From Flavobacteriales bacterium (GTDB lineage: Bacteria > Bacteroidota > Bacteroidia > JACJYZ01), in NCBI GenBank assembly GCA_020435415.1, contig JAGQZQ010000026.1, positions 1 to 37,923 of the forward strand: DNA of 37,923 nt, written 5' to 3'. This document shows positions 4,842-37,923 of the stretch, in pieces. Made by a program: the position numbers and the translations under genes. The notes under the pieces were generated by a model, which was not told the DNA's origin, did no database searches, and saw only the letters and a list, made by a program, of their open reading frames with translations. The first letter of the stretch is position 1. Each line of letters starts with the position of its first letter.

Positions 4842-4846
4842 TCCGT

Positions 4847-4854: not shown

Positions 4855-4868
4855 CCCATCTTCACCTT

Positions 4869-5888: not shown

Positions 5889-5889
5889 C

Positions 5890-7080: not shown

Positions 7081-7087
7081 CAAATTG

Positions 7088-8559: not shown

Positions 8560-8573
8560 TATTCTAATGTAAG

Positions 8574-10016: not shown

Positions 10017-10091
10017 ACGTGAATGATTATCTGGGCTTATACAAACATTAAGCCAAAAAGTTACCAATCTTAAAGAAAGAGAAGCTAAAAT

Positions 10092-12334: not shown

Positions 12335-12335
12335 C

Positions 12336-15462: not shown

Positions 15463-15477
15463 GACTTAAATCGTTCA

Positions 15478-16464
15478 TCATAATTCATCCTCTTCAAAAT
15501 AACGAGCAATATCTTGAGGCACAGTTGAACGAAGTGATTCTCGATGATTTTCATCCAGTACCGATTTCCACCTGCCGATATTGTGTCGCGAAAGATCAAG
15601 ATTTAGCATGGTCGGATCATATTCCACTCCTACAAAATCAACAATTTTTCTCAGGGTTCCCTCTGTGTCTCCAATCAAGTCTTCAAAACGTACTTCCATA
15701 AATGACGACGCGGGTATCTTTTCACGAACCTGCGTCCATCTTCCAAGAATATCACATATCCAACGAAAATTAACCTCAATTGAACTTGCACCCCAGTCGC
15801 GACCACCATATGACACCAGTACATCCCAGGGATTTCTGTAGACATGAATGAACCTGGCTTCCGGAAGGATACCTTGAAGTACATCGGCATGTATTATGCT
15901 ACTGGGCGTATGCTCAACTACACATTCCCCCTGGTTCAAGGTTCCAAATTGTTGAAAAAAACGGTTGACATAATGCCGGTTTACTTGCTCATATTCCGAC
16001 AAGCTCATAGGTATTGCATAATAACATAAATCCAGAAATGAACGCCGTAATGATAGAGGAATGGGTAAACGGGTCAACGCTTTTTTAAATACATTGGATC
16101 GCGCAGCCCAATCTCCCCTATATGTATAGGCAGCCAGGGCATCAACATAATCACGTTTCCAGTCATGGTAGAAATCACGTCCAACCAGTCGAGCCAAATA
16201 GGTATTGGGATATCTTCCGATATACCGCGTAGAAACGGAATTCAGGAGTTTATCAAATCGCCGTATGGCTATATCAGCTTGATAAAACGACCAGTAATCC
16301 ACCAAAGGCCCTTTAAGGGATACTACACCATCAGGGTCGGTAAGAAAACGAAGTTCGATAGGAAAACGCGATATTCTGGGGTGCAAGTCTAATACCCTTG
16401 ACAAAATTGTGGTTCCAGACCGCCCCGTACCTCCAACAAATATTGGCCTTACATCATCCATCAT
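15478..16464 (-). CDS. Sulfotransferase-family protein inside the polysaccharide operon
   Basis: A 328-residue protein with both PAPS-binding elements of the sulfotransferase fold: the 5'-phosphosulfate loop FVGGTGRSGTTILSRVL (residues 9-25) and the 3'-phosphate motif RFIHVYRNPWDVLVSY in the middle. A catalytic His/Ser arrangement is likely in VVEHTPSSIIHADVL. Proteins of this family move sulfate from PAPS to hydroxyls or amines of sugars, lipids or proteins. In this operon the obvious acceptor is the glycan repeat unit or a sugar-lipid. Start codons at 16464 and 16461 are adjacent ATGs; the first overlaps the upstream stop. No PAPS-synthesis gene is in the window. Confidence 0.8.
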   Translation of the reverse strand: MMDDVRPIFVGGTGRSGTTILSRVLDLHPRISRFPIELRFLTDPDGVVSLKGPLVDYWSFYQADIAIRRFDKLLNSVSTRYIGRYPNTYLARLVGRDFYHDWKRDYVDALAAYTYRGDWAARSNVFKKALTRLPIPLSLRRSFLDLCYYAIPMSLSEYEQVNRHYVNRFFQQFGTLNQGECVVEHTPSSIIHADVLQGILPEARFIHVYRNPWDVLVSYGGRDWGASSIEVNFRWICDILGRWTQVREKIPASSFMEVRFEDLIGDTEGTLRKIVDFVGVEYDPTMLNLDLSRHNIGRWKSVLDENHRESLRSTVPQDIARYFEEDEL

Positions 16465-17507
16465 TGCGTCTGGTTACTGAGTACTTGATACACCTTCATC
16501 ACCTCAATACATACATGCTGCAATGCGTATTGACGGTTAGACTTGAGGGCATTTTCAGCCATATGACTATATTCATTGGGTGCCATTTCCACAGCCTTCT
16601 TTAAGCATTTTTCAATACCCTCCACGGTTCGGTCGCCGATGAAAAAACCGTTGAAGCCATCTTTTATCTGCCCGGCAATCCCTCCTACCCTTGTAGCTAT
16701 CACAGGTGTACCACAAAACATTGCCTCTGAAACCACCAGACCGAACCCTTCTTTCTCAGCAGGTAGCACCAGAAACCTGCTTGCAGAATAAAGCTTTCTT
16801 AGGCCATCCTGATCAACAGCTCCGAAGTATGTAACATTCTGCTTTTCTGCCATCTGTTCAACCTGTTCTTTAAACTTTCCCACACCCACAAAACCAAAAC
16901 TAACCGACGGATCATTCATTCTAGAAATTATCTCGAGCAACAAATGCACACCCTTATTTTCGACGAATTTTCCGACAAAAAGAAAATCAATTGTCTTGTC
17001 GCGTCCCTCATCATAAAACTTCCTTTCATCCACGCCGGCACAAAGCACCATATCCGTAGCTCTGTTAAGGTTCTTGCGAATCAACGGAGGCAAGGCATCT
17101 CCCACAGCAATTACATAATCCATCATTCCGGCCACCCTGGAAAACAACCATCTTTTCATTTTTGAATTCAGGTTGACCGATACATCAGACCCATGAACGG
17201 TCAAAACAATGCGGCACCCGGGATGAATCATTTTGTAAGCATATGCCAGGAGACCGATGGGATAAATGTAATGTACATGCAGGATATGATACTTTTTAAA
17301 GAACCTGGGAACAAACCTAAGAAAAGCATTCAAGTACTTCCATGCACTTCCGGTTGGACCGGTCAGCTTCCGTTTCATATAGAACAGTTCAATAACATCA
17401 GCGGGGGCTTTCAGTTCCTGTAAACGTTCATATTGATTCTTAACAAAAATGCCGCTGTATGGAACTTGTTGAGAAGGGTACATATTTGATAGGATCAACA
17501 CCTTCAT
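16461..17507 (-). CDS. GT4-family glycosyltransferase
   Basis: A 348-residue GT-B enzyme starting MKVLILSNMYPSQQVPYSG. Features: HILHVHYIYPIGLLAYAYK and VLTVHGSDVSVN in the acceptor domain, DFLFVGKFVENKGVHLLLE at the domain border, and FLVLPAEKEGFGLVVSEAM with GTPVIATRVGGI, the EX7E donor motif typical of GT4. It overlaps the flippase by 4 bases and the sulfotransferase by 4. Likely adds a sugar to the lipid-linked repeat unit. The specific donor is unknown. Confidence 0.9.
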   Translation of the reverse strand: MKVLILSNMYPSQQVPYSGIFVKNQYERLQELKAPADVIELFYMKRKLTGPTGSAWKYLNAFLRFVPRFFKKYHILHVHYIYPIGLLAYAYKMIHPGCRIVLTVHGSDVSVNLNSKMKRWLFSRVAGMMDYVIAVGDALPPLIRKNLNRATDMVLCAGVDERKFYDEGRDKTIDFLFVGKFVENKGVHLLLEIISRMNDPSVSFGFVGVGKFKEQVEQMAEKQNVTYFGAVDQDGLRKLYSASRFLVLPAEKEGFGLVVSEAMFCGTPVIATRVGGIAGQIKDGFNGFFIGDRTVEGIEKCLKKAVEMAPNEYSHMAENALKSNRQYALQHVCIEVMKVYQVLSNQTQ

Positions 17508-18814
17508 CTGCGATCCGATCTTAAAAAGAACTGATTCACATACAATACGGAAATCACATTTCTTGAGCTCATACTAACCGTGGTAGCAAGGGCTGCACCC
17601 GTAATGCCATACTCAGGAATCCATATGTAATTTAATACAACATTCAATACAACACTGACGAACAGAATATTCCTTGCGACCTTCTCCTGATTGGTCATTT
17701 CTAAAAGCAAACCGTTAACCCCAGCAAGGGCATGAACCAGCTGATTGATAGTTAAAATAATAAGCGGCGTAGTTCCATGCACAAAATCATCTCCTACCCA
17801 CCCCAGCAAATAGCCGGGAACCAAAAAAATTATGATGGCAGCTGGTAGTGACGTAAAAAAGGAAAGACCTGAGACCTTCCACATAAACCTCTTCAATTGC
17901 AACCGATCATTGCTGTAAAACATTTCTGAAAATTTAGGGCCTGTAATGCTTGTCACTGCCACGAGGGTAATACTTACAATATTGGATATTTTTAATGCGG
18001 CATTATAAACGCCAACATCCGTTTCTGTTTTGAAAATACCCAGCATGATAGAATCAGTCCACCACAACAGGAATGTAAAGGAGGTTGTAAGCAGCAGTGC
18101 AGAAGATACCCCGACTACCTCCCGAAAAGGGGGATCTTCTGTTTTAGCAGTACCGGGTAATTCACTTTTCTGATATCTCAGGTGTCTTAATACCATTCGC
18201 GTACTAATGGTGGCTGCAGTGAGTAATCCAAGCACATAAGCATAGATGGGTGCCCCTACAGCCGAAACAAGGTAAATCAATGGAAAAATATACAGCATCG
18301 GAAACAGAAATCTGGCAAAATTCTGAAAAAACGAATGCTGTGCAGCTTTCTTCAATCCTCGCAGAAAGCCTCCGTTTATCGCCACAATCACAAATGCAAA
18401 TAGTCCTGCCGGAAGTATTCGATAGTACCAGGTCAGTTCGGAAACGTGAAACACCTCCTCTGCCATCCACCTTGCACATACCATCATGATCACTGAGATT
18501 GCAAGGGTCAGAAGAAGCGAAAACCTCATGCTCTTCTTATATATCTTGCGTATGGATTCAGTGTTCCTTTGCTGCATCAGATTAGCCACATATCTGGCAA
18601 TGGATGCATCAAAACCATATTTTCCTATCATACCTGCAATGGAGAGCACCGAAAGAAAAAGTGTAAATACGCCCAATGAGCCAGCACCCAGGTAGCGTCC
18701 AACCACAAAAGTGAAAGCATAGCCAGCAACCATTCCCAGAAACTTATAAATGAAAGCCCCTGAAGCACCCTTCACTACCTCCCTAAAATGGCGATCCTCA
18801 AAAAACGCCTTCAT
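17504..18814 (-). CDS. Wzx-like lipid-linked oligosaccharide flippase
   Basis: A 436-residue inner-membrane protein of the MATE/MOP polysaccharide exporter superfamily. About 12 hydrophobic helices can be counted, starting with FIYKFLGMVAGYAFTFVVGRY and ending with YIWIPEYGITGAALATTVSM, with the characteristic GYGITGAA-type stretch near the C-terminus. It would flip the undecaprenyl-linked repeat unit to the periplasm. Position between the Wzy-like protein and the glycosyltransferases, with 4-base overlaps on both sides, supports a Wzx/Wzy-dependent pathway. Confidence 0.9.
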   Translation of the reverse strand: MKAFFEDRHFREVVKGASGAFIYKFLGMVAGYAFTFVVGRYLGAGSLGVFTLFLSVLSIAGMIGKYGFDASIARYVANLMQQRNTESIRKIYKKSMRFSLLLTLAISVIMMVCARWMAEEVFHVSELTWYYRILPAGLFAFVIVAINGGFLRGLKKAAQHSFFQNFARFLFPMLYIFPLIYLVSAVGAPIYAYVLGLLTAATISTRMVLRHLRYQKSELPGTAKTEDPPFREVVGVSSALLLTTSFTFLLWWTDSIMLGIFKTETDVGVYNAALKISNIVSITLVAVTSITGPKFSEMFYSNDRLQLKRFMWKVSGLSFFTSLPAAIIIFLVPGYLLGWVGDDFVHGTTPLIILTINQLVHALAGVNGLLLEMTNQEKVARNILFVSVVLNVVLNYIWIPEYGITGAALATTVSMSSRNVISVLYVNQFFLRSDRR

Positions 18815-20160
18815 ACAGACGGGTCTTGTGAAGTTTGACGATGTGAATCCGTAAAGAACCGATATTGGTATATATAGAGGTATACCAGCGCAACAACACT
18901 AGCAACAGTGGGACTATTCAGGGCATGGCCGGCAAAAACAGAATGTCCTAAAAAAAGAGTAATTGCGACCAGGAAGGTGAAGTTAAGGAATGTTCTTTTT
19001 TGCAGAAAAGAAAAGACCATCTTCACCCAAAACAAAACCGGAAGGAGTAACAACAACATACCGAGAATAATTCCATAAGCGCCGACGAAATCATAAAAAT
19101 CCCTTTCTACATGTTTTCCCACCCCGGCAAAGGCCTTTGGGTACGTTTTGATTACCTCAAAGTTAATATGCTGCAAGAAATAGTAATTGCTTTCCCCGAA
19201 TATATTAAGCAACCACGCCCTGTCTGCAATGCGGTTTTTGGCTGCTTGTACCATCAATTCTCTGGGAGAATGCGCAATGAGGCTCTCGAATTTGGTCACC
19301 AAAAAACTATATTGGGTAATAATATCAATCAATACGGTGATACCCCAGACCAAGAGCCCAACGCCAACCCCAATCAGCATCAGGCGAGAAAAACGGCGCA
19401 TGGGTATATCCTTTTTTTTGAAAAATATAGCAGATAAAACAAACACAAATGTAATCAACAGTGATCCAGCCAAAGCCGTTCTTGTGGTCAGCAGTATCAG
19501 TCCTGCCAAGGTGGTCATTACCATAATAATGTTACCAAGTGTCATTTTTGTGAACACCCGATATAAACTCATCACTAAACTGATGAGTACAGCAATACTG
19601 ATGTCATTCTGGGCAATAAAATATGACTTCATACCAAACCCACCATCCCACTCCTGACCATCATAATAGGTCATCATTCCAAATCCGGTCACAAATGAGA
19701 AAATAATCGCACCACCCGCAATAAAACCAAACCATGAAATGTGACGAATCATATCCTCAATTCCAATATCAAACTTTACCGCCAATTCCCATAGAAGCAC
19801 CACCATTATAAAAGGCATAATGATCCTTGATATTTCTCTTACCTCCCATTGAAGCATTGAGAATATATGATCCTCACTGGAAAAGGTCCACACTATGGCA
19901 GATATCCCCCATAACAGCAAAATCATCAAAACATAAAGCTTGAACCGATTTTGGCCTGATGTAAAAAAGAAAGGAGTGCTGATAATCAGAATGCCTGTTC
20001 GGTAAATGATGCCCACGGAAACATCCACCCGAAGCTCCATTTTCAAAAATCCATTCATCAGATCTACAATCACCGGAACCACTAAGACCAAGGCTATCAA
20101 AAACAGACCAAGTTGCCGGTGGGTCAAAATACGTCCAGTCCAGATAGGAGTTGCTAACAT
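18811..20160 (-). CDS. Wzy-like O-antigen polymerase/ligase family membrane protein
   Basis: A 449-residue protein with about 10-12 hydrophobic helices and a large periplasmic loop in the second half (about residues 270-350), the usual layout of Wzy polymerases and WaaL ligases. The stretch LILLTTRTALAGSLLITF matches the core of the Wzy_C domain. First gene of the operon, starting at the ATG at 20160 and overlapping the flippase gene by 4 bases. Because it lies next to a flippase and an initiating transferase, polymerase is more likely than ligase. Sequence alone does not settle this. Confidence 0.85.
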   Translation of the reverse strand: MLATPIWTGRILTHRQLGLFLIALVLVVPVIVDLMNGFLKMELRVDVSVGIIYRTGILIISTPFFFTSGQNRFKLYVLMILLLWGISAIVWTFSSEDHIFSMLQWEVREISRIIMPFIMVVLLWELAVKFDIGIEDMIRHISWFGFIAGGAIIFSFVTGFGMMTYYDGQEWDGGFGMKSYFIAQNDISIAVLISLVMSLYRVFTKMTLGNIIMVMTTLAGLILLTTRTALAGSLLITFVFVLSAIFFKKKDIPMRRFSRLMLIGVGVGLLVWGITVLIDIITQYSFLVTKFESLIAHSPRELMVQAAKNRIADRAWLLNIFGESNYYFLQHINFEVIKTYPKAFAGVGKHVERDFYDFVGAYGIILGMLLLLLPVLFWVKMVFSFLQKRTFLNFTFLVAITLFLGHSVFAGHALNSPTVASVVALVYLYIYQYRFFTDSHRQTSQDPSV

Positions 20161-20303: not shown

Positions 20304-21272
20304 TTAGTTCACCCTCACCTTGTTCAGCTTGTACCGTTTTTTCAACGGTCCTTCACCGGTCTTATAGGCCAACTGATAACCCACCGTGATCTCGTGGGAG
20401 CCTGTGTTTGAAGTTTTGAGACCGGAAAGCAAAAGGTCATAAGAATACGCCACCATGAATGCCTCTGCAAAACGGCACCCCACAAGCAGTACCATGGCAT
20501 CCCCGGTCCTGTAACCTGCACCCGCTATGACTTTATCATCATAAGACATATTCAGGTTGATGTGTAATTGTGTCGGATTGGCCTGTACCATCTGCACAAG
20601 TGCTGCCGGCTCCAGGGTGAACTTCGGATTTATTTCTGCCTTATAACCACCCATAAAGTAATAGTGATTTTCCAGCGGCACATAACTTGCATTGCCACCG
20701 GACTCAAAGAAATCCAGTTTCCCTTTCAAAAGGTGAAGGGCTGAAAACCCAACATATAAATCCTCATTATACATTAACATACCAAAATTCGCATCGGGTG
20801 TCATCGAACGGTCCCTGGTGGTGAGGTCTACCGTTTGATCTGTGGGATCGTACAAATTTATTTCGCGGCCATCGACCGAGTATTGCAACAATCCGCCCGA
20901 AAGACCCAATGACAGATTCATGGAGCCCAACTGCAAATGGTGCGCATAAGCCAGGTTTAAACCGATACGGCGGAAAGGCCCGGCAGCATCGTTAAACAGA
21001 TATCCTCCGACCCCCATCTTTCCATTGGGCAATATGGCATGACCGCTCAACACCTGTGTTACCGGTGCACCGTCAAATCCCACCCACTGGCTGCGGTGAT
21101 TTAATTTGAAATCTATGAATCGCTCGGATCCCGCAACGGCTGGATTTAGCGCAAACTTATTGAACATGTGATGGCTGAATACCGGCAGCTGTTGCGCCAT
21201 GGTCATATTCCAGGATAGTCCCAGAAACATTACCGCCGTGACAATTCTATGATATCTCCGTTTCATCATCAT
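20304..21272 (-). CDS. PorP/SprF-family type IX secretion outer-membrane protein
   Basis: A 322-residue protein with a signal peptide (TAVMFLGLSWNMTMAQ), followed by the family hallmark FNKFALNPAVAG and beta-rich repeats with aromatic residues near the ends, typical of a small outer-membrane barrel. PorP/SprF proteins work with the type IX secretion machinery and are often paired with one large cargo carrying a type B C-terminal domain, for whose secretion or surface attachment they are needed. Here the first of three adjacent ATGs (21272) overlaps the stop of the cargo gene by 4 bases, so the two are translationally coupled. The overlap makes this cargo the likely client. Confidence 0.9.
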   Translation of the reverse strand: MMMKRRYHRIVTAVMFLGLSWNMTMAQQLPVFSHHMFNKFALNPAVAGSERFIDFKLNHRSQWVGFDGAPVTQVLSGHAILPNGKMGVGGYLFNDAAGPFRRIGLNLAYAHHLQLGSMNLSLGLSGGLLQYSVDGREINLYDPTDQTVDLTTRDRSMTPDANFGMLMYNEDLYVGFSALHLLKGKLDFFESGGNASYVPLENHYYFMGGYKAEINPKFTLEPAALVQMVQANPTQLHINLNMSYDDKVIAGAGYRTGDAMVLLVGCRFAEAFMVAYSYDLLLSGLKTSNTGSHEITVGYQLAYKTGEGPLKKRYKLNKVRVN

Positions 21273-24200
21273 CTGATAATGGTTAGAATACCCTTGATCA
21301 TCTCATTTCCATCACCAAGGTCCAATGTATAGTAATATGGCGCCGCGGGCAACGGATCGCCATTGATGGTGCCATCAAACAGTTGGTTGTAATCCGTGAA
21401 CGTTTGAAGCAAGTTACCATTTCTGTTATACAAAGAGATCACGTGTTCCGGGTACTTCTCAATGTTTGTAATGATCCACGTATCATTGGCCCCGTCATTA
21501 TTTGGAGTGATCATATTCGGGATGTCCAGGGTTAAATCATCGATCACACAAACCTGCTGCAATGTGGTGTCCGTACAACCCTGCGTAGACTTAACAACCA
21601 GCACTACGCTAAAACAACCGGTATCCGAATAGACATGCGTCGGGTTGATTGCATTGGAAGTGGCGCCATCACCGAAGAACCAGTATAAATCGTTTCCTCC
21701 GGTAGATGAATTGGTAAATTCCACTTGCGGATCATCCAGGGTGGTATTGGTTGAATTCGCAGTAAAACCAGCCGTTGGTGCACCATATACCGTGATCATA
21801 TTGTTAAAGGTCAGCGAATCCGAACACCCGCTGGTTCCATTGGTAACGATCAGTTTTACATTGTAGGAACCGGGTGTGATATAAGCATGGGTTGGCGCAA
21901 ACTGATCGGAGGTCGAACCATCGCCAAGATCCCAGTTATATATGGTACCGCCATTCGAAAGGTTATCAAAGAAAACAACAATGGGTGCGCAGCCTGATGC
22001 GGTATCCCTGAAGTTTACATTTGGGCGGCTGCTTACGGTGACCGGTTTTGTGATCGAATCAGTGCAACCCAAAGAATCCGAAACGATCAGTTTGGTGAGA
22101 AAGCTGCCATTACCACCATAAAGGTGACCGGGATTGTTTGTTCCGGTAACGGTGACACCATCACCGAAGGACCAGGTCCAAACCGTGATCGGACCGCCAG
22201 TGCTTGCTGATATGTCTGTAAAGAAAATCGAATCGCCCAGGCATGCTCCTGTATTGCTGAAGTTAACAACAGGTGGCGGGCTGATACCCACCGCAACACT
22301 ATCAGATGCAGAACAGCCATTGACATCCGTCACCGTAACATAATAGGTTGTATTCGCAGATGGTCCCGCTTTGGGGTTGACAATTCCGGGGTTACTCAAT
22401 GTTCCGACCGGCGACCAAACATAGTTTGTGCCTCCGCTTGCAGCTAACTGCACGGAATCCCCTTCACAAATAAGAACATCCGAACCGGCATCCGCATTGG
22501 GTGGCGCATATACATTTACCTGAATGGAATCTATGCCCGTACACCCGGTGGTGTCACTCACCTGCACAACATAAGTTGTAGTCGCCACAGGAGAAGCAAC
22601 CGGATCCGGAATTGTATCATTACTCAGGGTAGAAGCCGGTGTCCATTGGTAAGAGTTCCCGCCTAATGCGGAAAGCTGAACGGTATCTCCAGGACAAATG
22701 GATGTGTCTCCGGACGTGGCCACAGAGAGGCTTGAGCCGATGGTTACCACCACGGTATCCTTATCTGTACAACCGAATCCGTTCGTAACAAGAAGCTCAT
22801 ATGCAGTTGTCACATTGGGCGAAGCAACAGGTGTCCCCACGCTGGGGTCATTGAGACCCGTGGCCGGCGTCCATTGATAACTGCCACCGCCGGATCCGTT
22901 CAATGTGGTGGAGCTACCCATGCAAATGGTCACATCACCGCCAGCACCAGCTACAGGAACAGGATTAACCGTTACCTGTACGGAATCCTCAGATGAACAC
23001 CCCCCGGAACTTACCGTGAGATGATAAACGGTGGTTGTCAACGGTGACGCCTTGGGGTCAGAAATATTCGGATCATCAAGCGAACCGGATGGTGTCCACA
23101 AATAGGTTCCGCCACCGCTTGCCATCAACTGCAGGCTGTCTCCAAGACAAACAGAATCCGGTATTCCGGCATCCGCCACGGGAATGGCATTGACGTTAAC
23201 CAATACCGAATCATTGCTATTGCATCCCCCGAGGGTATCTTCCACCACTACATAATATTTGGTGGTAGCAACCGGAAAGGCAATTGGATTGGCCGAACCA
23301 GGATTTATCAATGTTGCGGACGGTGTCCATGTAAATTTGTTACCTCCACCGCTAACCTGCAACTGAATGCTATCTCCTTCACAGATGGAGGTATCCGGAG
23401 TAACAGTCACTGACAGATTACTCCCCACACTTACCGTTACCGAATCCACACCGGAACATCCGCCGACATCGGTAATGGTCACATAATAGGTCATTGTTGA
23501 AACGGGTGTTGCCACCGGGTTGGCCACGCCCGGATTTGATAGGGTACCTCCCGGACTCCACAGATAATTTGTGCCGCCGGTTGCATTGAGCTGAACACTT
23601 CCACCGGAACATATGGAGACATCGTTTCCTGCATCAAAGGCACTGGGATTTCCCACCGTGATCATTACGGGTATGCGGAAGGTTCCGGGGCAAGTCCCCA
23701 CGTAAATGATGGTATCGTTGCTAATTGGACCAAATGTAAAAGGGCTTCCGGTAAAGATCATACTGCCACCAGCGGGAGAGTCCCACCACACCACGGTTGT
23801 ACCGGAAGGTGGTGCGCCTGTGATCAGTGCAGACAGGTCTACAGTACCACCCGGACACACAACGGTATCCCTGGCGGTGATTGAATGCCATGAAGTCCAT
23901 ATACCTGTATTTCCCACATTACCAGATGTAGCACCATTGCATGTAAACTCCGTCAGGGAACTTGAATTTGTGGTACCATATGCTCCACCCAAAACTGTTT
24001 GGGTAATGGTTTGAGAAGAAAGAGCGATGTGTCCGCCGCCGCCGCCACCACCGGTACCGTCTGCTTCGGTAACCGTGCCATTGGTAGGCTTGTTATATTG
24101 TGACCCGCCATTTCCACCATTGGCTGTAGCCGAAATACCGGTAAGGGTTCCTGAACCAACCACGGTGATGAAAATCGTTCCACCAGCACCGCCACCACCG

Positions 24201-25462
24201 GCACCATCATTTCCATGCGTTTGAAAATTATCTGCACAGCAGGCATTTCCACCGTTCTCACCGTTGGATATTACCTCTCCGGCGCCGCTCACATTTCCAT
24301 AACACATGATGTAAACGAGTCCGCCTCCACGACCACCGGTACCACCATCGCCATCGTTGTTATCTCCTGCTCCGCCGCCGCCGCCAAAAAACACAAGGTC
24401 ATCTATGTAGTCCACCGGGCGACCACCCAAACCACCATATGGCTTGCGACTATCGCCGGACCAGGCAGGTTTATCCGGACCCAGGATGGTTGCATCCTGA
24501 TTGGAATTTGACCAGGCATAACCACCACGACCACCGCCGGGTGAATTTACCCCGGACATCCCCGGGTATTCCAATTCCCACGCCGCAGCCCAACCGGGAG
24601 GTGTCGAATCCGCCACACCCAGGCCATACCAACCCGGAGCCCAACCGCCATTTGCACCGCCGCCGCCGCCACAATTATGTGCGTTGCCGCCGCCGCCGCC
24701 ATTTCCGGGTGCCCCACGACCATATCTACCGTTATACCAATTGTCATAATCCTGCTGGTAACCACCGATACCTTCCCCCTTTTCTCCACCCTCTTCCGGG
24801 TCCGTGCTTCGCATGATCGGGTTACCCCATTTGGTTTGACTGTCCAGTTGTCCGCCCCGAAATCCCAAACCGCTCATATCCATACTTCCACCCGCATTGA
24901 TGGTCGTGTTTCCTTCCACCTCCACCGCGAGGATACCTCCGGTTTGACCGTTCCAGGCTTCTCCGGTCATGACACCGCTGCTTGTTACGGTCAAACTTTC
25001 ATACCTGGGAACGCGGACTACCTGCACATGACCGGAGTCCGTATAGTCATACTTCAAACCACAATCTATGATGATGGTGTTGGCATCGGGAATATCCAAC
25101 ACCTGAGCAAATTCATTGTTTCCGCAATTGTTATAACTGGTGATCGCACCATAGGAGTTGTTATCGGGCACGCCATCCAGTGTGGCGCCTTTCATTTGAA
25201 TGATATAGACCAAATCACCTTTTTCAAGCGGCATCGAAAAGCGTCCGTTTGAATTCAAGACGCTGTTATTTACCGAGAGAGTCGTTGCACCGGCCGGTGC
25301 ATCAGCGGTGAGGTAGGTATATTCATTAACGATATTTCCGGCTGTGCTGATGGTCACATTGCCTGCTTTACCCATCTGCGACATGCCCTTCTGCGACATC
25401 AGGATCAGGAAAAGGCACAGACAAGAAATCGTCCGAAACCCCCGACTTGAAAGATTCATCAT
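21269..25462 (-). CDS. Giant T9SS-secreted surface protein with Gly-rich region, Ig-like and PKD repeats and type B sorting domain
   Basis: A 1397-residue protein. Order: signal peptide (residues 1-29, ISCLCLFLILMSQKGMSQ); a beta-rich stretch (30-155); a Gly-rich region (about 157-487) with several runs of five or more Gly and many Asn, Trp and Tyr; a short linker domain; six Ig-like repeats of about 75 residues (607-1067); three PKD domains (about 1070-1307, motifs WSFGDG, WDLGDG, WFFGDG); and a C-terminal domain from ITPNNDGANDTW to KGILTIIR that matches the gliding-motility-associated (type B) T9SS sorting signal. The start used is ATG 25462; a GTG at 25477 precedes it. No enzymatic motif is evident, so adhesin or cell-surface scaffold is most likely. 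Coupled to the PorP/SprF gene. Confidence 0.9.
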   Translation of the reverse strand: MMNLSSRGFRTISCLCLFLILMSQKGMSQMGKAGNVTISTAGNIVNEYTYLTADAPAGATTLSVNNSVLNSNGRFSMPLEKGDLVYIIQMKGATLDGVPDNNSYGAITSYNNCGNNEFAQVLDIPDANTIIIDCGLKYDYTDSGHVQVVRVPRYESLTVTSSGVMTGEAWNGQTGGILAVEVEGNTTINAGGSMDMSGLGFRGGQLDSQTKWGNPIMRSTDPEEGGEKGEGIGGYQQDYDNWYNGRYGRGAPGNGGGGGNAHNCGGGGGANGGWAPGWYGLGVADSTPPGWAAAWELEYPGMSGVNSPGGGRGGYAWSNSNQDATILGPDKPAWSGDSRKPYGGLGGRPVDYIDDLVFFGGGGGAGDNNDGDGGTGGRGGGLVYIMCYGNVSGAGEVISNGENGGNACCADNFQTHGNDGAGGGGAGGTIFITVVGSGTLTGISATANGGNGGSQYNKPTNGTVTEADGTGGGGGGGHIALSSQTITQTVLGGAYGTTNSSSLTEFTCNGATSGNVGNTGIWTSWHSITARDTVVCPGGTVDLSALITGAPPSGTTVVWWDSPAGGSMIFTGSPFTFGPISNDTIIYVGTCPGTFRIPVMITVGNPSAFDAGNDVSICSGGSVQLNATGGTNYLWSPGGTLSNPGVANPVATPVSTMTYYVTITDVGGCSGVDSVTVSVGSNLSVTVTPDTSICEGDSIQLQVSGGGNKFTWTPSATLINPGSANPIAFPVATTKYYVVVEDTLGGCNSNDSVLVNVNAIPVADAGIPDSVCLGDSLQLMASGGGTYLWTPSGSLDDPNISDPKASPLTTTVYHLTVSSGGCSSEDSVQVTVNPVPVAGAGGDVTICMGSSTTLNGSGGGSYQWTPATGLNDPSVGTPVASPNVTTAYELLVTNGFGCTDKDTVVVTIGSSLSVATSGDTSICPGDTVQLSALGGNSYQWTPASTLSNDTIPDPVASPVATTTYVVQVSDTTGCTGIDSIQVNVYAPPNADAGSDVLICEGDSVQLAASGGTNYVWSPVGTLSNPGIVNPKAGPSANTTYYVTVTDVNGCSASDSVAVGISPPPVVNFSNTGACLGDSIFFTDISASTGGPITVWTWSFGDGVTVTGTNNPGHLYGGNGSFLTKLIVSDSLGCTDSITKPVTVSSRPNVNFRDTASGCAPIVVFFDNLSNGGTIYNWDLGDGSTSDQFAPTHAYITPGSYNVKLIVTNGTSGCSDSLTFNNMITVYGAPTAGFTANSTNTTLDDPQVEFTNSSTGGNDLYWFFGDGATSNAINPTHVYSDTGCFSVVLVVKSTQGCTDTTLQQVCVIDDLTLDIPNMITPNNDGANDTWIITNIEKYPEHVISLYNRNGNLLQTFTDYNQLFDGTINGDPLPAAPYYYTLDLGDGNEMIKGILTIIR
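22265..23645 (-). repeat. Six tandem Ig-like coding repeats, about 225-235 bases each
   Basis: Within the T9SS cargo, units start near 23640, 23405, 23180, 22950, 22722 and 22492. Each contains a DxxIC-G-S/T-QL core, a SYQWTP or NYLWSP turn, DPVASP or NPVATP, and TTYYVTVTD..GC..xDSV. Units differ at many sites, so this is an old domain array rather than a fresh DNA duplication; the paired Cys of each unit suggest a disulfide. Confidence 0.88.
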
Positions 25463-25624
25463 GCTTGTGTTATCCACTCGTTAGCCCACCTCAAGTAACT
25501 AAAAATGCAGGAGATTTCAAAATCACATCAGAAATTACCCTTAGAAATCTGCATTCCATTTACTTATGACAGGAATATCTATAATTCAGTTCGAAAATAT
25601 AACAGGCTGGGAGAACCTCAACAA

Positions 25625-30660: not shown

Positions 30661-30668
30661 TAACTTTG
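30661..30668 (+). promoter_or_regulatory. -7 box (TAACTTTG) directly before the NqrM-like gene
   Basis: Exact TAnnTTTG match ending 4 bases before the ATG at 30673, as at 1849-1856. A TTG lies at 30644-30646, but the 14-base spacing is shorter than the usual 19-21. A very short or absent leader is predicted. Confidence 0.4.
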
Positions 30669-30672
30669 GGGT

Positions 30673-30870
30673 ATGGAAATCATTCTCATATCCATTGTGA
30701 TGATGGCCCTTGCCTTTGCGGGTATTGCCATCAAAATCCTGGTCAAAAAGAACGGCCAGTTTGCCGGTACTTGCTCCAGCAACAATCCGCTTCTTCAGAA
30801 AGAGGGTGCGGTCTGCGGCCTGTGTGGTGCTAAGCCGGAAGAGCAGTGCAAAAACTCCGACGCCTCCTGA
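30673..30870 (+). CDS. NqrM-like small membrane protein with four cysteines (candidate Na+-NQR maturation factor)
   Basis: A 65-residue protein: one N-terminal helix (residues 2-24, ILISIVMMALAFAGIAIKIL), then a short cytoplasmic or periplasmic tail with C34 in QFAGTC, C48 and C51 in VCGLCG, and C59 in EEQCK. NqrM of Vibrio has the same plan (one helix, AGSCGG, then further Cys) and is needed to supply iron to the NqrD/NqrE centre. The four Cys, the AGTC motif and the position next to apbE and near nqrBCDEF support that role. Spacing of the last three Cys differs from Vibrio NqrM, so I leave the symbol blank. It ends 3 bases from the convergent apbE. Confidence 0.72.
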   Translation: MEIILISIVMMALAFAGIAIKILVKKNGQFAGTCSSNNPLLQKEGAVCGLCGAKPEEQCKNSDAS

Positions 30871-30873
30871 TTC

Positions 30874-31917
30874 TCAAGATTCCTTTGGGGCTTCTGTTTT
30901 CTTCTCTTCGATGATCCGTGCTTTGAATGTGTCAGTCATCCACGTATTGAACCGACCATCATCGTCACCGAAGATCAGGAACGCCTCCAGTTCCGGGTGA
31001 TCTTTCAGGAACACTTTCGCACTGTCGGTCCCCATCACCATAAGGGCAGTGGCATAAGCGTCCGCATCCATACAATAATCTGCCACAATGGTAGCACTTA
31101 GCAAAGTGTGCCGGGCGGGGTATCCTGTTTTCGGGTCGATGGTATGGGCGTATTTCACGCCGTCATACTCAAAGAACTTCCTGTAGTTACCGGATGTGGC
31201 CACGCTTTTATCACTGACATGGATGATGACCTGGGCAACATGAACAACATCTTCCATAGGAAAATCAATGCCTATGACCCAGGCTTCTCCCGCCCCGTTC
31301 TTCCCGGCGGTCCTGAGTTCCCCACCTACTTCCACCAGATAATTGCTGATATTCTTTTCTTCCAGAAATTCTGCGAGAACATCAACAGTGTAGCCTTGAG
31401 CTATGGCGTTGAAATCAATCTGTGTTTCTTTATGCTTTCTTACATATTTTCCATCGGGAAGGATGCTCACATTCTGATAACCGGTGAACCTTGAGATACT
31501 ATCAATCACCGTACTATCAATACTTATGGGCGTTCCCGGGCTAAACCCCCAGGTACGTACAAGCGCACCCACCGTCATGTCAAAAGCTCCGGATGTGGTT
31601 TCCGATATTTTCTGTCCGGTGTTAAACACTTTCAGAAAATGAAGATCGGTAACAACCGAATCCATACCTTTATTTAACCTGGATATCAGCGAACTATCTA
31701 CCCAGAGGGACATCGATTGGTCGATGAGCCTCAGCAGACTGTCCACCTCGTTCACGAATTCTCTTTCTTCATCATCCAGATACGTGATAGCAAAAGTGGT
31801 TCCCTGGGCAGAACCCGAAATTTTTACCGTTTTCGGGGCTTCAGATTTGTTTTGGATACACGCATTGAGGACGAGTAATGGGATATAAAAAAACCTGATC
31901 ATAAACGGTGAACTCAT
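30874..31917 (-). CDS. apbE: FAD:protein FMN transferase ApbE, lipoprotein
   Basis: A 347-residue protein. The N-terminus (FFYIPLLVLNACIQ) ends in the lipobox LNAC, so it is a lipoprotein facing the periplasm. Family motifs: GAFDMTVGALVRTWGF, DFNAIAQGYTVDVLAEFL, LVEVGGELRTAG, VATSGNYRKFF, HTIDPKTGYPA and CMDADAYATALMVMG (metal-binding Asp residues). ApbE cleaves FAD and links FMN to Thr in D-x-x-S/T-G-x-T sites; NqrB and NqrC in this window carry such sites. A second ATG at 31902 is possible. It is convergent with the NqrM-like gene and divergent from 32056. Confidence 0.94.
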   Translation of the reverse strand: MSSPFMIRFFYIPLLVLNACIQNKSEAPKTVKISGSAQGTTFAITYLDDEEREFVNEVDSLLRLIDQSMSLWVDSSLISRLNKGMDSVVTDLHFLKVFNTGQKISETTSGAFDMTVGALVRTWGFSPGTPISIDSTVIDSISRFTGYQNVSILPDGKYVRKHKETQIDFNAIAQGYTVDVLAEFLEEKNISNYLVEVGGELRTAGKNGAGEAWVIGIDFPMEDVVHVAQVIIHVSDKSVATSGNYRKFFEYDGVKYAHTIDPKTGYPARHTLLSATIVADYCMDADAYATALMVMGTDSAKVFLKDHPELEAFLIFGDDDGRFNTWMTDTFKARIIEEKKTEAPKES

Positions 31918-32055: not shown

Positions 32056-32403
32056 ATGAAACAAAAGGTCATCTTATTCTTGATCGGTATTGTCTTAGGA
32101 GGGTTGGTAGCGGGTTGGTTGGTTTCATCAAGCTGGAAGAAGCAATTTGAAATAGACTATTGTACCGATTTATTAGGGCTGGTAAATACAGCTTCTGAAA
32201 TCAGGTTTTCCAGACATGCGGATCTGGGCACATACATCGAGAGCAAGTTACCGATGTATGTAACGGTTGTGGACAGGGAGTTCGGACAAAGTGAAGCTGC
32301 TGTATCAGCGTTAACCGGCGTTAAGAATTTTTACATGATGCACAGTCTGCCCGTACCTGTAGAAATCAAACCGATCCTCGACGCACTTCCTGCACAACCC
32401 TGA
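32056..32403 (+). CDS. Small membrane-anchored protein, unknown function
   Basis: A 115-residue protein with one N-terminal helix (residues 5-25, VILFLIGIVLGGLVAGWLV) and a soluble, probably periplasmic domain of about 85 residues, with a single Cys (DYCTDLLGLV). The soluble part is mostly helical and mixed in charge (ASEIRFSRHADLGTYIESKL). I recognise no family. It lies 19 bases upstream of the Cys-rich gene and is probably co-transcribed with it from the promoter near 32008. Confidence 0.65.
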   Translation: MKQKVILFLIGIVLGGLVAGWLVSSSWKKQFEIDYCTDLLGLVNTASEIRFSRHADLGTYIESKLPMYVTVVDREFGQSEAAVSALTGVKNFYMMHSLPVPVEIKPILDALPAQP

Positions 32404-32422
32404 TCATCTAAAACAAAACGTC

Positions 32423-32707
32423 ATGAAAAAAGCAAGACATTATATATTCATCCTCGGATCAGTGTTGTTCCTATGTGCATTCTTTACCACATTCGCATCC
32501 GTAGGGCAACAAGAATGCTACGATCCGCAATCGCTATGTTCCACCAACCCCAAATGTATCCCGGCTGTCACCAGCTTAAGACCGTGTAAAAGCACGGCAA
32601 GTCCTAACGGTCTCTTTACATGTTCGGGAGCCTGTGGCGCCAAACGCTGCTGGATATTCTTTGTATGTAAATGCGGGCAACCGCTCACCACCGGAGTTTG
32701 TTTTTAA
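32423..32707 (+). CDS. Small secreted cysteine-rich protein (ten Cys in the mature part)
   Basis: A 94-residue protein with signal peptide MKKARHYIFILGSVLFLCAF and a mature part of about 65 residues containing ten cysteines (ECYDPQSLCSTNPKC, RPCK, FTCSGACGAKRCW, VCKCGQ, VCF), enough for five disulfides. There is no lipobox of good fit at C18. Stable disulfide-rich peptides of this kind serve as toxins, inhibitors or structural parts, but I recognise no family and infer no function. Its gene ends 14 bases before a strong terminator. ATG 32423 gives a clean signal peptide. Confidence 0.7.
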   Translation: MKKARHYIFILGSVLFLCAFFTTFASVGQQECYDPQSLCSTNPKCIPAVTSLRPCKSTASPNGLFTCSGACGAKRCWIFFVCKCGQPLTTGVCF

Positions 32708-32720
32708 CTGGAGGAGGCGC

Positions 32721-32755
32721 AAAAAAAAGGCCGGTATTCGTACCGGCTTTTTTTT
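32721..32755. terminator. Bidirectional rho-independent terminator
   Basis: An A8 tract (32721-32728) is followed by a 7-base stem GCCGGTA/TACCGGC (32730-32736 with 32741-32747), loop TTCG, and a T8 tract (32748-32755). It lies between the convergent genes 32707 (plus) and 32766 (minus) and reads as a stem plus U-tract in both directions. Confidence 0.85.
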
Positions 32756-32765
32756 GTAATAATGT

Positions 32766-33512
32766 CTATGGTTTTTTCTGGACTGCATATTCATATATAG
32801 TGACCAGCCCCCCGGTCGCCGTCAACTTCAACCAACCCAAACGACCGTCAATCCGAAATACCACATATGATTTACTTTCATAATCAACTCTCCCGCAATG
32901 GCTATAATCGCGAACAGTTCTCCATGTTGGACGGATTATGCCAATACCACCAAGGTCTCCACCCTGAGTTTCGCTAATGTTATTATCTATCGGACTTATT
33001 TGTATTCTCTCTGATTCGAGGTCAAATGCATCGTTCATGCGAACGGAACTACCCGGTTCAAACCTATAGCGTCTTTCTTCTGTAGTAGACAAATATTGAT
33101 AGCCCGGCAAATTTTCACAGGTGTATTCGGTCACATCCAATTCTGAATCTGATCCCATAAATTTAATGGTATCCTTGTACTCTTTTGTGTATTGATCAAC
33201 TTTATAAGGGATATATGCAAACCCTAATTGTTCATTTATTGAGCGCAGATATGCGCTTCCGGTAACCCCCATTCCGGGGGACCCTGTAAAAGCAGCACTG
33301 ATGCGGATGTCATTCACACCATCTTTATCCACATCTACATCAATGAATTCCCCATGATTATATCCTCCCGAAACAACCAGTGAATCATCGGTGATCAGGA
33401 CCTCGTCCGGATCACCTACCACAAGCACATTGGGATATTCCGATACAATCGGATCCTTTTGGCACGCCACAAACACGCACGCGGTAAGAAATGTCAAAAT
33501 TGTATTTCGCAT
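32766..33512 (-). CDS. Lipoprotein of unknown function with one calcium-loop-like motif
   Basis: A 248-residue protein starting MRNTILTFLTACVFVACQKD; the Cys at about residue 17 followed by QKDP fits a Bacteroidota lipoprotein signal. The mature part is mostly beta-like and contains FIDVDVDKDGVNDIRISA, a DxDxDGxxD loop as in EF-hand or thrombospondin-type-3 calcium sites (near residue 60). There are Cys pairs (TCENLPGY, DYSHCGRVDY). An ATG at 33518 could add two residues. It is flanked by two similar terminator hairpins and is transcribed alone. I recognise no family. Confidence 0.75.
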   Translation of the reverse strand: MRNTILTFLTACVFVACQKDPIVSEYPNVLVVGDPDEVLITDDSLVVSGGYNHGEFIDVDVDKDGVNDIRISAAFTGSPGMGVTGSAYLRSINEQLGFAYIPYKVDQYTKEYKDTIKFMGSDSELDVTEYTCENLPGYQYLSTTEERRYRFEPGSSVRMNDAFDLESERIQISPIDNNISETQGGDLGGIGIIRPTWRTVRDYSHCGRVDYESKSYVVFRIDGRLGWLKLTATGGLVTIYEYAVQKKP

Positions 33513-33604
33513 GACCATTTGAATTATAGAACTGCAATATAAGGTCGGATATTTTAATCAGTAATACAAATGACCCTCATCATCCAATACGCTCAGTCCT
33601 GCAA

Positions 33605-33659: not shown

Positions 33660-34973
33660 TTATCCTCCGAAATCGTCGAATGACACATTCTCCGGAGGCA
33701 CGCCGAAATCATCGCACATTTTCAATACGGCCTGGTTCATCATCGGAGGGCCGCAGAAATAAAACTCGATATCTTCCGGCGCATCGTGTTTGCTCAGGTA
33801 GTTATCAATCAGGGACTGGTGTACGAATCCCGTGAAACCATCCCCTTCTCCATCCAACGTTTCCTTTACCTTCCAGTTATCTTCAGGTGTAGGTTCTGAA
33901 AGAACAAGGTAAAACTTAAAGTTAGGGAACTCCTTTTCGATCTGCTGGAAATCATCCAGGTAGAACAATTCGCGTTTGGATCTGCCTCCGTACCAATAAG
34001 ACACTTTCCTTCCGGTCTTCAAGGTATGGAACAGGTGGAAGAGATGAGAACGCATCGGCGCCATACCGGCACCACCACCTACATAGATCATTTCTGCCTG
34101 GGTATCCTTGATGAAGAATTCACCATAAGGTCCTGAAATGGTCACCTTGTCTCCCGGTTTTCTGCTAAATACATAGCTAGAGCAAATACCCGGATTCACG
34201 CCCATCCAACCGTTCTTCGCACGATCCCATGGCGGGGTGGCAATACGGATATTCAACATAATGATGTTTCCTTCAGCGGGATGGTTGGCCATGGAATATG
34301 CCCGGAAAATCGGTTCCGGATTTTTCATTTTCAAATCCCACAACTTGAACTTATCCCACTCAGGGCGGAACTCATCGGGTTGCTTGCCCATACGAGGATG
34401 CGCTGTGATGTCCATGTCCTTGAAGTCCACATCTATCGCCGGCACATCAATCTGAATATATCCACCTGCCTGAAAGTCGAGTGTTTCTCCCTCCGGCAAT
34501 TTCACCACAAACTCTTTGATGAATGATGCTACGTTGTAATTGGAAACCACTTCACATTCCCATTTCTTGATACCGAAGATCTCATCGGGTATTTTGATCT
34601 CCATGTCATTCTTGATCTTCACCTGACACCCCAAACGGTAGTGGTCCTGTATCTGTGATCTGGAGAAATATGGCTTTTCCGTTGGCAGGATCTCACCGCC
34701 ACCCTCCAGCACCTGACACTTGCACATGGCGCAGGTTCCACCGCCTCCGCATGCAGAAGGCAGAAAAATCTTGTTATTTCCAAGGGTTCCGAGGATTGTT
34801 CCGCCGGCTTCCACTTCAATGGTCTTTTCTCCATTGATTACCAGTTTAACCAACCCGGAAGGCATGAGCTTGGCCTTGGCAAATAGAATGATACCGATAA
34901 GCATCATCAGGAATACCAGGAAAACAACTACACTGGTGACAACCGTTGTTGTGTCAAATAGAAAAAATATCAT
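33660..34973 (-). CDS. nqrF: Na+-translocating NADH:quinone reductase subunit F
   Basis: A 437-residue entry subunit that takes electrons from NADH through FAD to a [2Fe-2S] centre. Order: one N-terminal helix (residues 11-31), a ferredoxin domain with C75, C81 and C84 ([10 protein letters not shown]) and C116, an FAD domain with RAYSMANHP (FAD binding) and an NADH domain with [14 protein letters not shown] and [13 protein letters not shown]. Length is close to the usual 405-430 residues. It is the last gene of the operon, 13 bases after nqrE, followed by a terminator. Confidence 0.97.
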
Positions 34974-34986: not shown

Positions 34987-35604
34987 TTAGAGTTTGATAC
35001 CCATAAAGCTCATGAAGGCAATGCCCATCAGTCCGGTAAGGATAAAGGTAATGCCCAGTCCACGCAATGGTGCAGGGACATTGGAATATCTGATCTTTTC
35101 ACGGATCGCTGCAATGGCGACGATGGCAAGGAACCAACCTACACCAGAGCCCAGTCCGAATGATGTTGCCTCTGCAATGCTGGCGTATTGTCTTTCCTGC
35201 ATAAAGAGTGCGCCTCCCAGGATGGAGCAGTTCACCGCAATAAGCGGCAGGAAAATCCCCAACGCACCATAAAGTGCCGGAGCGAATTTCTCCACGATCA
35301 TTTCAACGAGTTGCACCATAGCTGCGATGATGGCGATGAACATGATGAAACTAAGGAAACCAAGGTCCACATCCGCCATAGCAGGCGACAACCACGACAT
35401 AGCTCCCTCTTTCAGAATATAGTTTTCCAGGAGGTAGTTCACCGGAACAGTGAATCCGAGAACAAAGATCACCGCTGCGCCCAAGCCAACACCGGTTTTC
35501 ACGGTCTTGGAAACGGCCAGGTAGGAACACATACCCAGGAAGTAGGCGAAGATCATGTTCTCAATGAAAACGCCTTTTATAAATATATTTACGAGATTTT
35601 CCAT
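34987..35604 (-). CDS. nqrE: Na+-translocating NADH:quinone reductase subunit E
   Basis: A 205-residue protein with six membrane helices, starting [21 protein letters not shown]26 ([10 protein letters not shown]) and C125 ([11 protein letters not shown]) are the conserved ligands that, with the matching Cys of NqrD, hold the intramembrane iron centre. It is 21 bases after nqrD and 13 bases before nqrF. Length and topology are typical; RnfA is excluded by the neighbouring nqrC and nqrF. Confidence 0.96.
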
Positions 35605-35625: not shown

Positions 35626-36315
35626 TTATTCTTCGATGAGTTTGGTATTGCGTGACCGCTGAACCCAAATGATAATACCTACAATAATCAAGGCCATCGG
35701 AGGGAGGATCATCAGGTTGTTGTTCATATAGCCATGTGCCAGCGCCCATTGAACACCGGGAACTTCATAACCGAATAGCTTACCTGATCCCAGCAACTCG
35801 CGGAAGAAGGCCACAATCACAAGTATGACCGCGTACCCTAGTCCGTTTCCGATGCCATCCAGAAACGATGGCCAGGGTTTATTTCCGAGTGCAAATGCCT
35901 CAAGGCGTCCCATGATAATACAGTTGGTGATGATCAGACCGACAAATACGGAGAGTTGTTTGCTGACATCATACATAAAAGCCTTCAGTACCTGATCCAC
36001 CAGGATAACCAGTGAAGCGACTACCACGAGTTGCACGATGATCCGGATACGGCTGGGAATAAGATTTCGCATCATGGAAATGATCACATTACCACATGCT
36101 GTTACCACCATTACTGAAATCCCCATCACCAGCGCCTGTTTCATTTGCACGGTAATCGCAAGGGCTGAACATATACCAAGCACCTGAACGGTGATCGGAT
36201 TCTCATCGTTCATAGGGTTGGACAATAACTTCCGGTTCTTCTTGGAGAAAAGCGGTTCTTTCGGTTCCGCGGCCGGACTGGCGGTTTTTGTTTCTACTGC
36301 TGTTTCTGCTGCCAT
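35626..36315 (-). CDS. nqrD: Na+-translocating NADH:quinone reductase subunit D
   Basis: A 229-residue protein with six membrane helices. C49 (GICSALAIT) and C132 (TNCIIMGRLEAFA) are the conserved iron ligands shared with NqrE. It has an N-terminal hydrophilic extension of about 20 residues rich in Ala, Glu and Lys (AAETAVETKTASPAAEPKE) before the usual start region FSKKNRKLLSNP. The ATG at 36315 is 2 bases after the nqrC stop. The extension may be real or reflect a later start, but no other ATG precedes the conserved part. Confidence 0.95.
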   Translation of the reverse strand: MAAETAVETKTASPAAEPKEPLFSKKNRKLLSNPMNDENPITVQVLGICSALAITVQMKQALVMGISVMVVTACGNVIISMMRNLIPSRIRIIVQLVVVASLVILVDQVLKAFMYDVSKQLSVFVGLIITNCIIMGRLEAFALGNKPWPSFLDGIGNGLGYAVILVIVAFFRELLGSGKLFGYEVPGVQWALAHGYMNNNLMILPPMALIIVGIIIWVQRSRNTKLIEE

Positions 36316-36317: not shown

Positions 36318-37055
36318 CTATTGTTTGTTATTTTTCAAATACGTTTCATAGACCTTCAGCGTGCGGGAGATCATCTCATCGACCCCTGTGCTTGTAACGG
36401 TTCCGCCGGTGATGGCATCTACACCATGCACGTCACCTTCCTTTGCACCGCCTTTCACCACATGGATAGAAGCAAGCTCATTTCCTTCAAAAATTTTCTT
36501 GTCTACAAATTGAGCCTGGAACGCCGGGGTTTTGATTTCCGCACCGAGTCCGGGGGTCTCACCATGATGGTCAAAACTGGTACCGTAAACCGTACTGAGG
36601 TCCTCTTTCAAGGCTACAAAGCCCCAGATAGGCCCCCAAAGGCCGGTTCCCACCATAGGAATAACCGTAAAGCTGCCTTTGTCTGTTTCACAAATGAACA
36701 GGGGATAGTTCCTTTGATCCTCGGACAAACTTTTATATTCCTTTCTGACATCTATATTGAATCCGTCCTTTTTATCTTTTGCGTCGATGTTGCCCACATT
36801 TTCAGAAACCGGTTGTCCGCTTCCGCTGTGGTCAAGGACTACGCGTTTCTTCACATACTTATCAAACAGCGCCGGCGCCTCGTCCATGGTAGCTTCAATT
36901 CCAATCGTCTGAAGGATGTTTTGCATTTTCTCATGCATCTGGTTCCTTTCCTGGAATGGTTTCAGGCTGATGGCCGCAACGGACAGAATAGTGGCCACCA
37001 CCACCACCATGATGCCGGCAAACATAAACGTATAAGTGCTTCCTTCTTTGTTCAT
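36318..37055 (-). CDS. nqrC: Na+-translocating NADH:quinone reductase subunit C
   Basis: A 245-residue protein with one N-terminal helix (about residues 9-31) and a periplasmic flavin domain. The FMN attachment motif is DAITGGTVTSTGV, with T219 the expected phosphoester-linked residue. Vibrio NqrC has SGAT here, whereas this protein has TGGT. Other conserved stretches are PMVGTGLWGPIWGFVAL and HHGETPGLGAEI. ApbE at 30874-31917 would load the FMN. It overlaps no neighbour, with 11 bases to nqrB and 2 to nqrD. Confidence 0.96.
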   Translation of the reverse strand: MNKEGSTYTFMFAGIMVVVVATILSVAAISLKPFQERNQMHEKMQNILQTIGIEATMDEAPALFDKYVKKRVVLDHSGSGQPVSENVGNIDAKDKKDGFNIDVRKEYKSLSEDQRNYPLFICETDKGSFTVIPMVGTGLWGPIWGFVALKEDLSTVYGTSFDHHGETPGLGAEIKTPAFQAQFVDKKIFEGNELASIHVVKGGAKEGDVHGVDAITGGTVTSTGVDEMISRTLKVYETYLKNNKQ

Positions 37056-37066: not shown

Positions 37067-37923
37067 TTAAGCGGTTTTAAGTCTTTTGAGTCGTTGTTTG
37101 ATGTTGGCTTCCACCACATAGTGGTCGATCAGGGGTGCCATCACGTTCATAAACAGAATGGCCATCATTACCCCTTCCGGAAAGGCCGGATTGAAAATAC
37201 GTATCAATATGGCAAGCACACCAGCCAGGAAACCGTAAATGATCTTGCCCTTATTGGTTTGTGCGGCCGTTACCGGATCGGTGGCCATAAATACCATTCC
37301 GAACATAAAGCCTCCGAGCATCAGTTGGTGCAGCGGATTCACTTCCATGAACATGTTCGCTCCCCAGGCCTGAAGCAAGGTAGACATGAGGTATCCTCCT
37401 GCAAACATGGAAGCCATGATGCGCAGGCTGCCAATACCCGTGATGATCAAAATGGCTGCGCCGATCAGACACGCCAGTGCTGAAGTCTCTCCGATCGATC
37501 CTGGGATAAAGCCCATGAATGAATTATACATGCTGAAGGTACCACCGTCGGCCAGGGTTGCCTGGATCGCTGTTGCCTTCGCATCACCCGGGGTAAGAGA
37601 TACCAATTGTGCCAGGTCGCCGAGGGCAGTGGCTCCGCTGAAACCATCGACAACGGTTTGTCCGTCAACGGTGTCTGTATTGATCCATACCTCAGTACCT
37701 GAAATCTTTGTGGGGTAAGCAAAAAACAGAAATGCCCGTGCGGTCAATGCAGGATTCAGAACGTTCATACCTGTTCCACCGAATACCTCTTTACCGATGA
37801 CCACTGCAAAAATGGTTGCAACAGCGACCATCCAGAGAGGGATATCTACCGGCATAACGAGAGGGATTAACATACCGCTCACCAGAAAACCTTCGTTGAT
37901 CGGGTGTTTTTTAATGACACAGA
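37067..37923 (-). CDS. nqrB: Na+-translocating NADH:quinone reductase subunit B, N-terminal part outside the window
   Basis: The frame is open to the window end, beyond the GTG at 37882; the upstream residues read CVIKKHPINEGFLVSGMLIPL, matching the NqrB pattern, so this GTG is not the real start. About 285 residues are visible, with several membrane helices and the ApbE FMN site DGFSGATALG (Thr of SGAT). NqrB carries one covalent FMN and riboflavin and forms part of the Na+ channel. The stop is 11 bases before nqrC. Confidence 0.96.
   Translation of the reverse strand, partial: CVIKKHPINEGFLVSGMLIPLVMPVDIPLWMVAVATIFAVVIGKEVFGGTGMNVLNPALTARAFLFFAYPTKISGTEVWINTDTVDGQTVVDGFSGATALGDLAQLVSLTPGDAKATAIQATLADGGTFSMYNSFMGFIPGSIGETSALACLIGAAILIITGIGSLRIMASMFAGGYLMSTLLQAWGANMFMEVNPLHQLMLGGFMFGMVFMATDPVTAAQTNKGKIIYGFLAGVLAILIRIFNPAFPEGVMMAILFMNVMAPLIDHYVVEANIKQRLKRLKTA

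Follow-up and report, generated by a model that had tools for sequence, protein, structure and literature searches.

The stretch of DNA analyzed here (the window; 37,923 nucleotides, the entire contig C26 of a Bacteroidota genome) carries, beside an apbE gene and close to the nqr operon, a short open reading frame for a 65-aa protein, and the locus thus raises the question of whether this protein serves the maturation of Na+-NQR. A maturation factor of NQR encoded beside apbE is, as a kind, already known: NqrM was reportedly put forward by Kostyrko et al. in 2016 as the Na+-NQR maturation factor of Proteobacteria. In two further sources, NqrM (DUF539, PF04400) likewise figures as the factor that serves this purpose in Proteobacteria (PMC12174285, PMC6209661).

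The small gene spans positions 30673..30870 (+), from an ATG start to a TGA codon at 30868-30870, and encodes MEIILISIVMMALAFAGIAIKILVKKNGQFAGTCSSNNPLLQKEGAVCGLCGAKPEEQCKNSDAS. Its product is composed of a transmembrane (TM) helix at residues 2-25, a KK pair and a tail of the form C34-x13-C48-x2-C51-x7-C59, in which the four Cys residues belong to the segments AGTC, VCGLCG and EEQC. The ORF position, the single helix, the four-Cys motifs and the gene distances described by a sequence-only reading of the window are all borne out by the sequence and by helix prediction. The AlphaFold model also presents a single helix at residues 2-25, with pLDDT above 90 at residues 1-20, a mean pLDDT of 67 and values of about 50 in the tail, so that confidence is limited to the TM helix. 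In an alignment of 41 members of the family defined by this protein (hereafter the window family), C34, C48, C51 and C59 are all invariant, and at least 588 stretches encoding the family, mostly from Flavobacteriales/Crocinitomicaceae, were identified in the genome contig database. These invariant Cys residues and the number of encoding stretches, together with the presence of orthologs in 21 of 60 related genomes, indicate that the ORF is a real gene. Searches of NCBIfam and PHROGs with the protein returned nothing above cut-off, and those of PDB sequences only chance matches to the Cys motifs.

The gene immediately downstream, apbE (30874..31917, -), is convergent with the small gene; its stop codon lies at 30874-30876 (-), and only 3 bp separate the two stop codons. 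It encodes an ordinary FAD:protein FMN transferase (Pfam PF02424, E=2.4e-80; 270 bits against a cut-off of 25.6) with a lipoprotein-type N terminus (LLVLNAC). The nqr operon follows on the same strand as apbE, with the 3' end of nqrF (33660..34973, -; TIGR01941, E=1.4e-181) at 33660, 2.8 kb from the small gene. Beyond it lie nqrE (34987..35604, -; TIGR01940), nqrD (35626..36315, -; TIGR01939), nqrC (36318..37055, -; TIGR01938) and nqrB (37067..37882, -; TIGR01937), the last truncated at its 5' end by the contig end, and the nqrA gene of this genome resides on a separate contig (C45). The motifs recognized in ApbE clients are found in the window as SGAT in NqrB and as ITGGTVTS in NqrC, both flavinylation motifs. 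In the NQR of V. cholerae, the intramembrane 2Fe-2S cluster receives two Cys residues each from NqrD (Cys29/Cys112) and NqrE (Cys26/Cys120) (PMC9325719). The window NqrD and NqrE keep, at the sequence level, four Cys residues matching these ligands (Cys49 and Cys132 of NqrD; Cys26 and Cys126 of NqrE), which are their probable cluster ligands, and the two subunits are the presumed clients of the small protein.

Upstream of the small gene, TAACTTTG (30661..30668, +) fits the Bacteroidota -7 promoter element TAnnTTTG and constitutes a putative promoter element placed only 4 nt before the ATG, suggesting that the mRNA of the small gene may be leaderless. The TAnnTTTG element was detected upstream of 92 of 133 family members, compared to 239 of 1416 background ORFs; its spacing to the ATG is 4 nt in 16 of the 133 members and 14-19 nt in another group. 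These data are consistent with the small gene having its own promoter. No Rfam RNA was found in the window. Two of the unassigned ORFs between apbE and nqrF adjoin each other, encoding a 115-aa protein (32056-32403) and a secreted-looking, Cys-rich protein of 94 aa (32423-32707, +). Elsewhere in the window, positions 2785-20160 have the appearance of a polysaccharide-type cluster (glycosyltransferases, aminotransferases, and flippase- and ligase-like membrane proteins). The segment at 20304-25477 (-) holds what we take to be a 1402-aa repeat protein whose end resembles a gliding-motility/T9SS type-B tail; the gene after it looks like PorP/SprF.

Among 80 named loci of the genome contig database, apbE lies convergent at the 3' end of the small gene in 38, mostly 3-82 bp away and including Flavobacterium gillisiae (L188), and nqr genes are also present in 24. 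Likewise, roughly half of the loci of the family in the phylum genomes described below have a convergent apbE. Copies of the small gene detached from these partners show no steady functional neighbor, just lineage synteny, as far as neighbor names judged by eye can tell. The proposal that the small gene and apbE form a pair detached from the nqr operon holds on this contig, where three ORFs (32056-33518) intervene, and does not extend to the many relatives in which the pair adjoins nqrF directly.

We then compared the distribution of the small protein with that of Na+-NQR in a set of 60 related genomes, using a phmmer-type search for the protein and calling nqrA by TIGR01936 above its cut-off. 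The protein is present in 21 of the 60, nqrA is present in the identical 21 (G000, 4, 7, 9, 13, 16, 22, 23, 27, 29, 30, 31, 32, 33, 35, 37, 45, 50, 53, 55 and 59), and none of the remaining 39 carries either one. The naive probability of such a coincidence is ~1e-16 (1e-15.9), a figure that ignores the kinship of the genomes and serves as a guide only. The association persists in a draw of 296 genomes from the phylum searched with profile A1 of the window family, which was found in 45 of 54 nqrA-positive genomes and in 0 of 242 nqrA-negative ones. Furthermore, the genus g56 is split along the same line, with both genes in G137, G207 and G341 and neither in G077, G081, G111, G122 and G195. Physical linkage is not the explanation for this co-occurrence, because in many genomes the small gene lies far from nqr (390 kb in G059, 289 kb in G341) or on another contig (G013, G031, G137).

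The same distribution bears on two other assignments. Weak Pfam matches, all under the curated cut-offs (FeoB_associated at 9.1 bits and IFT122 zinc ribbon at 19.4 bits for the 65-aa protein; FixS at 13.5 bits for a diverged form found in Bacteroidales), could suggest that the protein serves another iron or metal system (FeoB-associated, CcoS/FixS or a zinc ribbon) and that its linkage to NQR is incidental. This reading is highly improbable, since the gene follows nqrA and is found in none of the 242 nqrA-negative genomes. Genes for FeoB and cbb3 oxidases are generally common among genomes of this kind. Both the scores and the phyletic pattern lead us to reject an identity as a FeoB-associated or CcoS/FixS protein. 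Alternatively, the protein might mature Rnf, or both Rnf and NQR, given that the two complexes share a membrane core in which RnfA and RnfE are homologous to NqrE and NqrD, and that many Bacteroidales have both, as seen in weak second nqrA matches. However, some 20 genomes with weak nqrA matches only, probably to RnfC, are all without the window family (G058, G063, G071, G084, G110, G143 and others). The small gene therefore tracks NQR and not Rnf, and we find a role in Rnf maturation scarcely credible.

A small accessory or structural subunit of the Bacteroidota NQR, or a modulator of its activity, would co-occur with NQR equally well, and the promoter-like element and frequent lack of linkage of the small gene also suit such a role. 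Nonetheless, the gene recurrently pairs with apbE, itself encoding a maturation enzyme, and not with a structural gene; its product bears four invariant Cys residues on a single-TM anchor, as NqrM does; and six subunits, NqrA-F, are described for the V. cholerae complex (PMC9325719). We thus consider a subunit or regulator unlikely. The suggestion that the protein is the partner of ApbE in NQR maturation, in turn, receives strong, if indirect, support from the phyletic co-occurrence and from the recurrent adjacency to apbE.

To relate the window family to NqrM, we searched for PF04400 (cut-off, 22 bits), the test named in the sequence-only reading. The model yields no match to the 65-aa protein at E-values up to 10, nor any match in its own genome, in the 60 relatives, in the 296 phylum genomes or among 22 diverse family members. 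This negative result is meaningful because the identical search finds NqrM in all four gammaproteobacterial records used as positive controls. Using real gammaproteobacterial NqrM sequences, hhalign comparisons of full profiles gave a score of 41.0 (P=1e-7) between the window family and NqrM, compared to at most 23.3 for 13 unrelated families with an N-terminal TM helix. After removal of the TM helix, the score dropped to 11.2, within the range of shuffled profiles (median 9.0, maximum 18.7). When single sequences served as the null, 26.4 was attained by one of 162 unrelated TM N-termini, a score within the span covered by individual NqrM sequences (23.7-31.3). Common ancestry of the window family and NqrM is hence plausible from profile similarity, and we do not claim NqrM membership, since the similarity of the Cys tails is not significant. 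The description of the protein as a divergent NqrM is thereby left with a profile score above the TM nulls in its favor, and with a missing PF04400 match and a non-significant post-TM similarity against it.

Nine nqrA-positive genomes of the phylum draw are devoid of the window family: eight from the family f59, which appears to be Ignavibacteria-like, and G320. All eight f59 genomes encode instead a protein of 67-75 aa that combines a single TM helix with four invariant Cys residues in the pattern CCGGG[HNS]C...C (L083:3536-3739, -; L077:15830-16054, +; L078:3359-3574, -; L079:3651-3860, -; L080:16562-16774, +; L081:15683-15889, +; L082:3343-3543, -; L084:17029-17229, +). The gene immediately follows apbE within the nqr operon except in L080, where apbE went undetected with the window ApbE as query and the gene lies ~1.1 kb behind nqrF. 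A profile of this CCGGGxC protein (alignment A3) matches exactly 8 of the 296 phylum genomes, which are the nqrA-positive f59 set. The protein matches no Pfam model above cut-off, PF04400 included, and is unmatched by the profile of the window family; its hhalign score with NqrM is 38.6, compared to at most 17.8 for unrelated N-terminal-TM families. It resembles the window protein in its single TM helix, four-Cys tail, position beside apbE and strict linkage to NQR, and differs from it in the pattern of the Cys residues. In G320 (G320:C25, L085), a genome listed with 3% contamination, the nqr operon has neither apbE nor an NqrM-like ORF nearby. One of the two forms is thus present in 53 of the 54 nqrA-positive genomes of the draw.

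A diverged form of the window family was identified in G031 and G290 (GHVSGNK...G[IV]xCAQSQD), with the general motif FPxTH[IV]G.NK..(K/R)KGI.CA..QD (alignment A4), in genomes of an order that their sequences suggest to be Bacteroidales. Profile comparison establishes its homology to the window protein (P=5e-11). The Bacteroidales form is present in 68 of 119 genomes of the order: 65 with nqrA above cut-off, two with nqrA fragments and one, G424, in which neither nqrA nor nqrF was detected. A model built from the two rows of A4 recovers it in 67 of about 101 NQR-positive genomes, probably missing the others because these members have diverged. It is sometimes convergent with apbE. In this form C34 has given way to H, S, E, K or R, and most members have lost the C51/C59 pair (alignment A6), even though a few loci of the set (L125, L126 and L129) retain CAKC...C. 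Only F30 and C48 are invariant across the whole set of A6, and C48 is the sole invariant Cys in Bacteroidales; these homologs thus do not display the four Cys residues that characterize NqrM. This argues for the C48 thiol as the part that cannot be dispensed with, natural variation within the family pointing to which Cys can be least spared. Tandem duplicates of the Bacteroidales-form gene occur in G385 (L127) and G426 (L128, 5315-5584 and 5554-5814, -), the latter pair combining a Cys-rich copy (GSCSSSP...SCGCGGGSC) with one of the KFPETEVGHNK form.

Taken together, these data make it likely that Bacteroidota have in the 65-aa protein their counterpart of NqrM, a dedicated maturation factor of Na+-NQR. 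The evidence for this is its co-occurrence with NQR also when unlinked, its pairing with apbE, the absence of a PF04400 NqrM from the genomes searched and the presence of the client Cys residues. The most economical reading would be that it does the work of NqrM in Bacteroidota, as a lineage-specific equivalent that may deliver metal or Fe-S to NqrD/E. The protein would be anchored in the membrane by its one TM helix, with the Cys tail probably facing the cytoplasm, an orientation suggested by the KK pair after the helix. By analogy with the NqrM proteins of Vibrio and Klebsiella, it would most likely bind iron or an Fe-S precursor and pass it to NqrD/NqrE for the intramembrane 2Fe-2S cluster, while the neighboring ApbE would attach FMN to NqrB and NqrC.

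Several observations weigh against parts of this proposal. A four-Cys iron carrier sits badly with the Bacteroidales members, which keep C48 alone. A maturation role is also less easily squared with G320, which has NQR without a recognized version of the protein, and with G424, whose contig C19 encodes the Bacteroidales form (L142:6561-6767, -) in a genome (95% complete, 110 contigs) in which neither nqrA nor nqrF was found, reflecting either an assembly gap or a true exception to the NQR linkage. More tentatively, we entertain a broader possibility, which is itself rather doubtful: that Na+-NQR depends on at least three sequence-distinct factors replacing each other by lineage (PF04400, the Bacteroidota family and the CCGGGxC form), and that, with C48 alone in Bacteroidales, the common step is single-thiol transfer or scaffolding at NqrD/E and not four-Cys iron binding.

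NQR is thought to have originated in the Chlorobi/Bacteroidetes group (PMC4014512), and the sole factor known to act on its intramembrane cluster is represented by a model that matches none of the 296 Bacteroidota genomes, a gap that the window family would fill. The proposal provides a predicted function for an uncharacterized small protein that occurs in Flavobacteriia, in Rhodothermia-like lineages and, in diverged form, in Bacteroidales, and makes it a candidate co-expression partner for producing Bacteroidota NQR in heterologous hosts. Our literature survey, whose scope excluded the primary NqrM papers, where an earlier remark is possible, revealed no description of the window family, of a replacement for PF04400 or of the CCGGG form.

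Compared to classical NqrM, the window protein shares a length of 65-75 aa, a single N-terminal TM helix, basic residues, the G[ST]C motif, four Cys residues in the same order, a gene beside apbE/nqrF and occurrence with NQR. In contrast, the Cys residues are spaced as C-x13-C-x2-C-x7-C in the window protein and as C-x11-C-x-C-x3-C in NqrM, GTCASNNP takes the place of GSCGG, and the basic C-terminal RKK tail of NqrM is missing. The genetic arrangement also differs: the gammaproteobacterial order is nqrF-apbE-nqrM in Providencia, with apbE upstream of nqrM, and nqrF-nqrM in Klebsiella, whereas apbE is convergent with the small gene in the window and genes of the window family are, unlike nqrM, often convergent or unlinked.
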